From positions 1 through 38,912 of the forward strand of contig JAOPVX010000437.1 of NCBI GenBank assembly GCA_025965975.1: a stretch of DNA of 38,912 nt. Reading direction: 5' to 3'. Every line of letters begins with the position of its first letter. Positions within the stretch are counted from its first letter, which is position 1. Positions 27,285-33,004 of the stretch are shown in pieces. The stretch comes from Mycobacterium sp. (GTDB lineage: Bacteria > Actinomycetota > Actinomycetes > Mycobacteriales > Mycobacteriaceae). The notes below the pieces were generated by a model that made no database searches, was not told where the DNA came from, and worked only from the letters and a program-made list of their open reading frames with translations. Both the position numbers and the translations under genes were made by a program.

Positions 27285-27698
27285 TCATGGAGCGGTCGAT
27301 CCAGGTCGGACTGCGACGAGTTTCCTTAGTCGCTGTTGGTCGAGTTGTTTGGTGAGTTGTTCGTTTTCGGCGGCCAGCACGTTGACGATGCGGGCGAGCG
27401 CGTCGATGGTGTGCTGCCGTTGTCGGCTCTGCGCATTGAGGTCGGCCAGGCGACGATGTGCAACTGCGAGCTCGTCGCGAAGTCGCTTCTCGCTTTCTGG
27501 TATTCGGTTCTGAGCGCGGACGCGGGCGTAGAACTCGTCTTTGAGGTCGGTGTGGCGGTGGGTGAGGATGTGCCGCTTGATTCCGGCTTCGGCCGCGAGG
27601 GCGACGACGGTGAGTGCTCCGTCGGAGCGCAGCGGTGTGCCCGCGAGGAGGCGATCCATCGCGGCACGTATGTCGTTGCGTGTTGGGTCTGTGCTCAC
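27285..27698 (-). CDS. TnpC-like small coiled-coil protein of the recombinase operon (DUF6262-like)
   Basis: A 137-residue protein with an N-terminal helical, probably DNA-binding region (IRAAMDRLLAGTPLRSDGALTVVALAAEAGIKRHILTHRH) and a C-terminal coiled coil (about residues 70-122). It starts at GTG 27698, overlapping the stop of the third recombinase (GTGA). Tn554-type and similar recombinase clusters end in a small TnpC-like protein that assists strand exchange. It closes the operon formed by the recombinases at 36251, 34746 and 33004; the break in the third may lower its expression. Confidence 0.7.
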   Translation of the reverse strand: MSTDPTRNDIRAAMDRLLAGTPLRSDGALTVVALAAEAGIKRHILTHRHTDLKDEFYARVRAQNRIPESEKRLRDELAVAHRRLADLNAQSRQRQHTIDALARIVNVLAAENEQLTKQLDQQRLRKLVAVRPGSTAP

Positions 27699-28729
27699 GC
27701 GGGATCTTCCCCTGTGTCGGTTGTTATCTTGGTGCGGTCGTGTGTGTCTGCGAGGTCGCTCAGCGTGAGCGCGCGGTGCCGTAGTCGTTCGGCGAGCGGT
27801 CTTGGTGTGGCCGGTGAATCTGCCTGTTGCCGCAGTTGTTTGGCTTTGAGCCTGAGCAGTGTCGCGTCGCGGTCGGTGCGGGCGATGTTGGGGCAGGAGG
27901 ATTGGCAGCGGTCAAGGCTGGGCGTGTGCGTTCGGTTGGCAGGTCCGTTGTCGGGGTTGCAGAGGGCTTTGGTGGGGTCGTAGTTGCACGTCAGGTAGGC
28001 GCTGGTGTTTTCGAACACGGTCAAGGTGGGATCGGCCAGGAGAGTCCTGGCCTGGCGTCGGGTGAGGATTGCACCGGCGAATCGGTGATGTTGCTGGCGT
28101 GCGGCGTGGATGAGTCGGCGGGCTGCTGGGCCGGACACTCCGTATCCGGCCTGCAGAGAGTCGTGCACGTCGGCGAGGTGGTCGGCGACGGCACGCGCGG
28201 TTTCCAGATCCAGGAGCTCGTGGATGCCGTCGCGCTGACGGGCTGCGTAGCTTTCGCTGATGAGGGTGCGCATGTGACCGTATTGGACTGCCAGGGCGAC
28301 CAGGCCGCCTGGTTGGCGGGCGATGTGCCAGGCCAGGGTGCGCCGGAAGCGTCGGGTGCCGATGCGACCGTGGGGGTCTGGCGGGATGGTGGCTTCGCCG
28401 GTCCGGTCATTGACCCAGCTGACGAATTCGTCGATCCGCCTGTTCATCGTGCTGTAGGTGACTGAGCGCCCGTTCCGGTTGGTGTCTCTGGTGGCGAAGA
28501 GCAGTCCGGCAGGTGCTGTCTGCAGCTCGAGGATGCGGATCGCGGCAACCACCTGGGGGACGGCGACCCAGGGGGCCGGGCGTAAGACGCCGGCGGACAG
28601 GTGATTGCCGTCCTCGTCGTAGGCGGTCTTGTAGTGGAGTGCCCGTATGAGGTGTCGTCGGGCAGCTGAACGGTCGTCTTCGGCCGCGGCTGGCGGTTCG
28701 GGACAGCAGCCGGCGCGCAGCGCGAGGAC
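27695..28729 (-). pseudogene. third tyrosine recombinase of the trio, C-terminal half (interrupted gene)
   Basis: From 28729 the frame reads VLALRAGCCPEPP, continues HYKTAYDEDGNHLSAGVLRP and goes to the stop at 27695, 344 residues. It contains RFRRTLAWHIARQPGG, the YGHMRTLI His and a tyrosine in SESYAARQ, plus a Cys-rich C-terminus (CNPDNG, CQSSCPN). There is no start codon at its head. The missing N-terminal half is at 31916-33004 and ends LTGMRSSE; joined, they read LTGMRSSE-VLALRAGCC, the usual Arg-box region. The whole gene would encode 707 residues. Confidence 0.85.
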
Positions 28730-28940
28730 TACTGGTGGAGTGGACGTATTCGAAACGTGCGCTATTCCTCCGCGGGGGCCGCCCGCTACCTGTGCCGCTT
28801 TGTGTTCACCGGGGGTCCATCACCTGATTTCGGTCGCTGTCGATGCACTAGCACTTGGGATAACGCGGCGTCCGGAACGCCCTTGCGCGGTAATCAGGCC
28901 GACTCTCGAAAGCAAGGAGTAGCGGCGCGGCTTGGCCGTA

Positions 28941-29687
28941 TTAGTCGAGTGTTTCCCAGAAGCGGTTAAGGGCCACCGCGCCGCGAGCTGGGTCCTGCAC
29001 CATCCACCAGTGTCCGAGCCCGTCGAGCACCTCCGTGCGCGCTCCGGCTCGGTCGGCCGCCCGCCGTCGGATCTCCTCGGAGCCGATGTATGGATCCTCG
29101 GTGGCCAGCAGTGAAAGTCCCGGCCGAGCGGCGGCGTTCGCCAGCGCGCGGCCGGCCTCGGCCATGGCTGGTTGGCGAGCCGAGCGGTACAACAACAAGA
29201 TTGCCCGACCCATCTCCGGGCCTTGGGCTGCGGCGATCGAGGTTGCGATGTCCAGCGGTATACCCAGCGCGACCATCTGTTCGGCCCGGTCACCGACCGT
29301 GCCGCCCAGCATGGTGTCGACCAGCTGCTCGCCGTCGCCCGGGGTCTGCCATACCTGGGCGAGGTCGTGCCAAACGTAGTCTGGGTCGAACAACCCGACG
29401 ACGTCGCTGGCCCAGCTGCGCACCAGCTCGGGTCGATGCATCGCCACGTTCACGACGTGGCCGCCGCCCCAGTCGTGACCGACCAGGTCGATCGGTTCGT
29501 CGACGCCCTCCAGCTCGCCCTCGAGCCAGTCGCGGTAGTCCAGGTAGGTCGCCGGGAAGTCGTCGGGTAGTAGGGTGCCGAATCCCGGCGGTGACAGCCG
29601 CACCACATCGTCGTGCCCGAGGGCATCGACCAGCGGGCCCCAGATCGCTTCGGTCTCCGGATTGCCGTGCACCAGAACCACAGTCAT
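28941..29687 (-). CDS. alpha/beta hydrolase, haloalkane dehalogenase/epoxide hydrolase-like
   Basis: A 248-residue alpha/beta-hydrolase. The oxyanion motif HGNPETEAIW is near residue 7. The nucleophile elbow is GHDWGG with Asp, not Ser, which points to ester-intermediate enzymes such as epoxide hydrolases and dehalogenases. An acid is suggested by LLATEDPYIG and the His by LDGLGHWWMVQDP. I chose ATG 29687 (MTVVLVHGN). It lies 105 nt downstream of the FAD monooxygenase on the same strand; a monooxygenase making an epoxide and a hydrolase opening it would form a logical pair, which is inference. Confidence 0.85.
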   Translation of the reverse strand: MTVVLVHGNPETEAIWGPLVDALGHDDVVRLSPPGFGTLLPDDFPATYLDYRDWLEGELEGVDEPIDLVGHDWGGGHVVNVAMHRPELVRSWASDVVGLFDPDYVWHDLAQVWQTPGDGEQLVDTMLGGTVGDRAEQMVALGIPLDIATSIAAAQGPEMGRAILLLYRSARQPAMAEAGRALANAAARPGLSLLATEDPYIGSEEIRRRAADRAGARTEVLDGLGHWWMVQDPARGAVALNRFWETLD

Positions 29688-31223: not shown

Positions 31224-31401
31224 GGCGAAACCCCTTACTCGCCGTCGGGCGGTCGAGCCGTCGAGATGAGTAAAGTAGCCGCAGTTCACGGGCCGTAGCC
31301 GCGACGGGTTCGGGCACCTCGTTCGGTACTTCGCCCACGACCGTCGCGTCGGCGGGATATCGCACCTCGATACGCAGGTCGCGAACCTTCGTCTCAGTCA
31401 T
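31207..31401 (-). CDS. small hypothetical protein upstream of the FAD monooxygenase
   Basis: A 64-residue frame starting MTETKVRDLRIEVRYPADATV, overlapping the monooxygenase start by 17 nt. The composition (Asp, Arg, Glu and Val mixed) is protein-like, and no other frame here is. A signal peptide or domain is not visible. It may be a coupled leader or a small partner of the monooxygenase. Confidence 0.45.
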   Translation of the reverse strand: MTETKVRDLRIEVRYPADATVVGEVPNEVPEPVAATARELRLLYSSRRLDRPTASKGFRHAGIG

Positions 31402-31915
31402 CGGCCGATCCCCGTTCTTGCACATTTACTGGGTGTCCGCTGAGTATCACCCCGCCGGGACAGGTTGCACTGAGTAATCGACTACTCGAATAGCCTGTAT
31501 GCACTTCTCGTGGGCAGCGGCGGCGAGCGGCGGAATCTGGCATCCATTTCCCGTTGCCGCCGACCGGCCGAAGCCGCGACGATCGACCGGTAGTTGTCGC
31601 TTGCCTGCACCAGCCCGTTCCAGCCGCGCGTGGGACGAGCCGGCTAACCGGGTCTGTCGCATGCCGGCACAGTCCCGACGGCCGTACTCGCTGTTGCATC
31701 AAATACAACGTGATTGCGCTAGATACCCACGACCAATTCTCCGTTCAGGGAATGGGTGCCGCGGCGCAGTGGGCCAGCGATTGTTGCTCACTAGTCCAGA
31801 AGCGAGGACAGGGCAATCTGATTGCAGCAGAACCTATTTCGGCGACTTTGGCCTACCGTCCGTCATGTCGTGTCATGCGATAGTCGGCTCCGAGCAGCGG
31901 CGTGTAATCCCGTTT
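31402..31915. other. non-coding end of the insert
   Basis: About 510 nt upstream of the monooxygenase operon, up to the junction with the recombinase. It should contain the cassette promoter; none stands out. A plus-strand frame (31499-31924) has no recognisable domain and crosses the junction into the recombinase. Confidence 0.4.
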
Positions 31916-33004
31916 TTCGCTTGATCGCATGCCGGTGAGGTAAGCGATCACGATGAAGCAGGCGGTATTGAGGTGCGCGACAAGGGCTCCGATCTGGAAG
32001 TGGTCGATGTTATGGATCCAGGGCCGGTCATCGATGGTCGCGGTGATGGGGACATCGAGCGGGCACGGTCCTGGGTTTTCCCGCAGGTAGCGTTGCCACT
32101 TCGGATGCCGGAGGGTTTTCTCCACCGCGCCGGCGGGGCAACCGGTGATCCCGGCGATGTAGTTCCTGGCCATCGTCGGCTCACCTTTATGGCGGCCTGC
32201 GGGCAGTGGTTTGCCGGTGGACTCCAGATCGTGAAGGTAGGCGGGCAGCGCCGTCGTCCGAGCTGACCGCGGGCGATGTCCTGTGCCGGTGGCGATTGTG
32301 CGTAAGCGTTGATTCTCGGCGTGCCCGGCGAGGATGTCGCTGGCGAAGTCTTCGACGAACCGTAGCGCCCAGACCAGCAGCGGTCCCATGGTGGCGGGGG
32401 CGAGCGGGTCGGTCACGTTCTCGCCGGCCGGTCTTGCGGCTGAGAAGTATTCGTGAAAATCGCCGGTTTCCCAGGGTGGTGCCGCAAGACGCGCGAAAAC
32501 GGGAAGCAGCGGAGCGTAAGCGTGCAGTCGAGTGAGTGCCCCGAGATGGCTGACCGTGGTGTTTCGCGCCCACGTGCGCGTTGTCGTCAGGTAGGTGCTG
32601 TAGTCGGCGAGCATTTCCGGGGTGACTGCAGCAAGTTCGGTGATGCCGCGCTCATCGAGCCAGATGGCGAAGGATCGCCAGTCCAGGACGGTTTTGTGGG
32701 TGCGCAGCGCGCTGAGGTGGCCTCGCATGCGTGTCTTGCGGGCCAGCAGGGCGTCGGGCACCGGAAAGTTGAGCAGCACCCAACTGGCGAGACGGAATTG
32801 TTCGCGGAGTGTCACGGGGAACGCCGACCAATGAATGCGTGCTGTGCCGATGGAGGGGTTGGCGCTGGCGAATGTCATCAGCCAGGACTCGGCGTCGTAG
32901 CGGGGGATCAGTGCGCGGTGATCAGCGTCGACGGTCGACGGATCAATGATCGGGTCGCTAGGCCGCGGAGCGGCCAGGATGCCGGGGGTGAGAGCTGTCG
33001 TCAC
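31916..33004 (-). pseudogene. third tyrosine recombinase of the trio, N-terminal half (interrupted gene)
   Basis: Starts at GTG 33004, which overlaps the stop of the second recombinase (GTGA), and is open for 363 codons to LTGMRSSE, the Arg-I box with catalytic Arg360. It then crosses into the insert, adds about 20 foreign residues (KRDYTPLLGADYR...) and stops at 31853. The N-terminal core-binding region includes SFAIWLDERGITELAAVTPEML. The C-terminal half lies at 27695-28729. As it stands it lacks the HxxR and Tyr boxes. Confidence 0.85.

Follow-up and report, generated by a model that had tools for sequence, protein, structure and literature searches.

A transposase-less gene unit with a recurring right end splits the third recombinase gene of a Tn554/SE-like operon in Mycobacterium sp.

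Introduction

What has cut the third gene of a recombinase operon of Mycobacterium sp. in two, and how did it arrive there? The stretch under study, called the window here, is a DNA of 38,912 nucleotides (nt) from contig JAOPVX010000437.1 (assembly GCA_025965975.1). All coordinates refer to the whole window, and the operon and the genes of its insert are all on the minus strand. A preliminary description, made from the letters of the window, had proposed site-specific or recombinase-mediated capture of a metabolic cassette by the recombinase gene. We compared the locus with genomes of the genus, with plasmids and with a species-genome collection. The insert is probably a non-autonomous, site-specific mobile unit bounded by a left-end motif (L) and a right-end motif (R), in the arrangement target-L...R-target. 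Most likely it entered in this form at a conserved codon of a recombinase that belongs to another mobile element. In what follows, G plus a number denotes a genome of the genus (G000 is the own genome of the window), C a contig, and L followed by a number an extracted locus; a border at which L directly follows R is written R-L.

Results and discussion

A 3186-base insert splits the third recombinase

The operon opens with recombinase 1 (34743–36293; 516 amino acids, aa), a tyrosine recombinase with matches to Phage_int_SAM_1 (3e-8) and, below the cut-off of that family, to Phage_integrase (2.9e-5). The second gene, recombinase 2 (33001–34746), is an open reading frame (ORF) of 581 aa without a match in Pfam or NCBIfam. 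Its place in the operon is like that of Tfp in SE elements, as these are presented in an excerpt of PMC10214605. The N half of the third recombinase (31916–33004) begins with a GTG at 33004, overlapping the recombinase 2 stop at 33001, and ends in LTGMRSSE at 31916, after which its frame reads a foreign tail up to a stop at 31853. The C half (27695–28729) begins with VLALRAGCC, and its stop overlaps the start, at 27698, of a small fourth gene (27285–27698; an ORF of 137 aa). The ORFs thus agree with the preliminary description, both in the break after LTGMRSSE with continuation from 28729 and in the operon overlaps kept on the two sides of the split gene. The YLTGMRxxE motif at the cut, which we take to be the Arg-I catalytic box of tyrosine recombinases, is retained in the uncut copies listed. 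Homologues of the small fourth gene stand after other third recombinases too. We assume that it holds the place of TnpC/Srap, its likeness to TnpC being one of position.

The best plasmid match was pJCM12687 of Mycobacterium branderi (locus L002), where the same operon has its third gene in one piece. Window positions 27332–28730 align with 6001–7402 of L002 (82.0%), and 31916–36339 with 7402–11819 (80.2%); the N and C halves of the split gene are 76% and 84% identical to the uncut copy, respectively. Because the two flanks join at a single base of L002, the insert (28730–31915; 3186 bases, missing from the uncut relative), which we regard as a single mobile unit, measures 3185–3186 bases, one base at most being ambiguous, and has produced no target duplication, as had been proposed from the window itself. 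Nothing convincing was found among the listed matches for repeats at the insert ends, with neither an inverted repeat nor a duplication.

We then used the N and C parts of the third recombinase as separate queries against 294 genomes of the genus. The N part was matched in 48 of them (E<=1e-10) and the C part in 56 (E<=1e-8). Homologues do not stop naturally at LTGMRSSE: at the 20 N-part places that rank next after the window, open frames of 711–822 aa run through the cut. The own genome holds recombinase 1 in one copy (E<=0.001) and one clear N part, together with a distant uncut third recombinase on contig C173 (25% identity to the N part). The 3186-base insert that splits the third recombinase is therefore confirmed as a real feature.

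The right end of the insert recurs in actinobacteria

When the final 215 bases of the insert were searched against the 294 genomes, the last 35–43 bases recurred and, in the best matches, stopped at the junction. Many weaker matches fell in other parts of the query and are probably due to chance. The recurring segment defines R, a 38-nt right-end motif with a sharp end (28731–28768, minus strand). A model of R finds one real copy in the window (45 bits, 28731–28766). At E<=0.05 it matches the own genome 14 times, G263 11 times and G256 four times, some of these matches being weak. R was found in 45 of the 294 genomes at E<=0.05, many of the weaker matches being partial, and in 21 at E<=1.2e-6. 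A scan of the species-genome collection with a degenerate exact pattern of R gave 16 stretches, all in actinobacteria. Four lie in one metagenome-assembled genome (MAG) of Mycobacterium and two in a Streptosporangiaceae MAG; Solihabitans, Rhodococcus, Nocardia, Mycolicibacterium iranicum, Amycolatopsis, Mycobacterium sp. AT1, M. celatum, Streptomyces, an actinobacterial MAG and Actinoplanes have one each. R shows no covariation, and 17 copies of R-L gave no consensus fold; on these grounds a hairpin, an attC site and a rolling-circle end were ruled out for R.

These borders bear on whether the split could be an artefact of assembly, two unrelated contigs having been fused within the recombinase gene. 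Contamination of the assembly is stated as 4.6%, and R-L repeats do terminate contigs: the R matches of own contigs C35, C118 and C119 all belong to a single repeat located at contig ends. However, both window flanks match one uncut gene to the base, and like borders occur in G277, a genome of four contigs, and in other genera, so that we give an artefact almost no credence.

R-L borders separate tandem units, and some units are shared between genomes

Directly after R, many copies carry L, a motif of about 50 nt. Two same-direction copies of R stand 2.9–3.9 kb apart on each of the own contigs C188, C173 and C178. On contig C38 of G263, three R-L borders (two with weak R) delimit two units, of 1.9 and 1.0 kb, each having a single main gene, and at three places in G263 L occurs without R. 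Tandem arrays with a conserved R-L border site are thus present in own C173 and C188 and in G263:C38. The units in tandem measure about 1–4 kb, and those inspected carry about one to three ordinary genes.

Units also recur between genomes in different surroundings. An R-ended unit of 3478 bases is 99.97% identical in G096 and G277, and both of its flanks differ. An aldo-keto reductase unit is shared by own contig C125 and G256 (97% identity over 1443 bases); its last 150 bases are 85% identical, and its right neighbour in G256 differs. In M. iranicum and Mycobacterium sp. AT1 the R-ended side has identical ORF coordinates, and the right flanks are divergent copies of one gene family.

The start of the insert (31886–31916, minus strand) was compared with L by anchored tests. 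None of 600 random window 18-mers scored as high when the ambiguous base was included, and 0.17% of the random 18-mers reached the best score when it was left out. With 30-mers, 0.07–0.4% of 1500 random sequences reached the mean score, according to the start base chosen. The right target side of the insert had no likeness to L (p 0.61). The left end of the unit may be L in a diverged form, although a profile search and free local alignment did not pick it out (see below).

R borders recur at a few probable target genes

On own contigs C173 and C125, R is followed by the C part of another, divergent third recombinase that starts at the same codon as in the window (37% identity in C173; 48% in C125, over 50 residues only). 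The register is the same in Solihabitans fulvus, where a third-recombinase C part comes after R (42% over 67 residues). The uncut relative, the recurring right end and the same codon in three other third-recombinase genes support the proposal that a metabolic cassette was captured by site-specific or recombinase-mediated insertion. The same observations bear on end-joining, in which host repair would have pasted chromosomal scraps into a break of the recombinase without any dedicated element. The left part of the insert is indeed a patchwork of gene scraps, and neither a duplication nor an inverted repeat accompanies it. A right-end motif that recurs elsewhere with the same border largely refutes this explanation, as does the hit on the same codon in other genes, and we consider it very improbable.

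The second target that recurs is a small gene, presumably HNH-like to judge by a motif. R adjoins it in own C178, M. iranicum, Mycobacterium sp. AT1, G263:C90 and G286:C33; the own copy is the least similar of the five, and in Pfam one of the five has a weak match to zf-His_Me_endon. In both M. celatum and M. branderi the third target is yraN. The M. celatum gene is split between positions 33 and 34 of the UPF0102 profile, its left side matching 1–33 and its right side 34–80. The two yraN insertions are probably a single shared event. No target gene could be named at the remaining R borders without L. A group of right neighbours with the motif CxxTxYxPPL was considered as a target gene and rejected, since its nucleotides look like a diverged L; these neighbours are not counted as targets.

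Two loci with other third recombinases were noted in addition. Own contig C173 (L166–L167, 15345–24161) reads in order: the uncut frame of a distant third recombinase, R-L, a unit, R and a cut third recombinase. The N part that the cut gene lacks could have been lost by recombination between R and L. In G140:C7 (L198, 3055–4681) a further third recombinase has its C part interrupted by about 1.4 kb, which separates query residues 78 and 87. This was not accepted as another R case: the interruption lies at a different place in the C part, and R is absent from its vicinity.

Candidate enzymes and a possible route of insertion

The R-ended unit in yraN encodes a tyrosine recombinase of 372 aa (Phage_integrase 3.3e-21), an XRE regulator of 110 aa (HTH_26 3.2e-15) and a protein of 764 aa without a Pfam family. 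The M. celatum copy of the unit has an L-like left end (p 0.0007–0.004, mean score). Relatives of the 764-aa protein were present in four of the five genomes searched, including own contigs C117 and C41. We surveyed 64 loci selected by R, among them some duplicates of one place. The M. celatum and M. branderi loci contained relatives of the three proteins, and so did, beyond R, the group of G260, G229 and G100. Fragments of such relatives occur at two MAG loci (L238 and L239), and weak relatives at own locus L137, where other recombinases are abundant.

Locus L137 (G000:C119) is a contig that starts with R-L and carries several tyrosine recombinases. It presumably also contains a piece resembling an IS256-type transposase, and some of its genes appear to us to be placed like tnpA, tnpB and tnpC of Tn554.

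From these observations we propose the following route. A unit would be excised as a circle in which R and L are joined. The circle would then recombine at its R^L border into a few targets, without duplication. One of these targets would be the codon border just past the TGMRxxE box of the third recombinase in a four-gene Tn554/SE-like operon. One such unit would have entered the operon of the window and split the third recombinase, which presumably lost its function as a result. The mover of the units may be the operon of tyrosine recombinase, XRE regulator and 764-aa protein, an unproven candidate.

Several results weigh against this scheme. No circle was seen. The profile search for L did not report the window at E<=1, and free local alignment of the insert start with L gave p 0.04–0.32; with positive anchored tests and these two negative ones, the left end of the window unit is a putative, diverged L. 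Nor is L clear in the 3478-base unit (p 0.25, anchored; p 0.04, mean score). The N sides of the cuts on C173 and C125 were not found in the assembly. No R or L above 8 bits was seen near the fetched relatives of the 764-aa protein outside the yraN loci, and one of 17 control loci also had a relative of the recombinase. On these results the operon is a candidate and not more.

The trio itself could instead be the mover: Tn554/SE-like recombinases, of this or another copy, would move the units, and the insertion into the third recombinase would be a by-product. Four R borders fall in third-recombinase genes, and own C119, G277 and M. branderi have Tn554-type or trio genes within several kb of R. 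According to the excerpt of PMC10214605, site specificity is a property of SE and Tn554 elements, which also cause no duplication. On the other hand, the ends of the window trio did not show R, most of the 64 R loci have no relative of a trio protein, and the R-rich genomes G263 and G256 gave no third-recombinase match with either the N or the C part. We regard the trio as an unlikely mover, though still a rival of the candidate operon.

Comparison with known systems

The R/L units are like integron gene cassettes in that they are small, lack a transposase, stand in tandem with a conserved border site and enter without target duplication. They are unlike them in three respects. The integron integrase TIGR02249 was above its cut-off in none of five genomes, the own included; R and R-L have no conserved fold, so that attC-like folding was not seen; and R/L units are often 3–4 kb long. 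By analogy, the insert would work like an integron cassette while lacking two of the features that define integrons.

The split operon, by contrast, follows the gene order of Tn554-related, SE and GInt elements, which the excerpt of PMC10214605 gives as a short recombinase, a second gene, a long recombinase and a small gene. In the window, the ORFs and their overlaps make up an overlapping four-gene operon of this kind. The inserted unit differs in that it has none of the genes of these elements. Actinobacterial Tn554-like transposons share the host group and have, in the part of PMC3414803 consulted, one long and one ordinary recombinase and sometimes TnpC; unlike the window unit, they bring their own recombinases. 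RIT elements also have three adjacent overlapping genes, but the archetypal RIT proteins measure 315–410 aa in the excerpt of PMC10214605, whereas the first two of the window have 516 and 581 aa, the third is longer, and a small fourth gene is added.

A literature search of titles and abstract openings gave no prior description of R/L units, although this does not prove their absence from print; one of the papers listed (PMC12715929) names Gamma-Mobile-Trio. Our results point to small R/L mobile gene units as a little-described family. The broader picture would be an actinobacterial cassette economy that is integron-like but unrelated to integrons. Small units without a transposase, bounded by L and R, would circulate, stand in arrays and enter conserved codons of other mobile elements and of a few housekeeping genes; they would be moved in trans by the tyrosine recombinase/XRE/large-protein system and, where they land in the TGMR box of a recombinase gene, would disable the element that carries them. 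To us this picture is as open to doubt as to belief. If true, it would mean a route other than integrons that makes actinobacterial metabolic genes mobile, and any genome could be searched for the ends of such units. It would also explain actinobacterial recombinase genes cut at one exact codon. Through the R and L motifs, the claim could be tested on long-read data that already exist.

Contents of the insert and neighbouring genes

The ORFs agree with the earlier view of an insert with metabolic genes and no transposase, to which two gene scraps can be added; no recombinase was seen among them either. The gene resembling FAD monooxygenases (29793–31289) is given as the longest frame, in which homologues start internally. 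Its match to PF01494 (5.5e-4) is below the cut-off of that family, and plasmid homologues carry the annotation FAD-dependent monooxygenase. The alpha/beta hydrolase gene (28941–29696) matches Abhydrolase_6 (4.6e-16). Both scraps are located in the left 660 bases of the insert. The first (31277–31371) has 72–78% identity over 82–96 bases to the first codons of genes of 511–525 aa, which we take to belong to the aldehyde dehydrogenase family. The second (31510–31579), 83% identical over 70 bases in L060, is presumably from another hydrolase gene. All four lie on the minus strand.

With the whole insert as query, 263 of 297 genomes of the genus matched somewhere, and the matches listed cover the monooxygenase, the hydrolase or both. 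The two genes are adjacent in G068 and G207 (74–75% identity). Among plasmids, 37 records matched partially with 60–80% identity. An Rfam scan of 26500–37000 returned only two matches, far under the gathering scores. A second such monooxygenase, 73% identical to that of the insert, lies at a contig end of the own genome (L066, G000:C114, 1–2747) and adjoins pieces of a tyrosine recombinase related to that of the yraN unit.

To the left of the operon is a DUF302 gene (26791–27204). The region 21300–27200 also contains ORFs that, judged by reading only, resemble a two-component system (23946–25831), part of an ABC transporter (21318–22148) and proteins related to metals.

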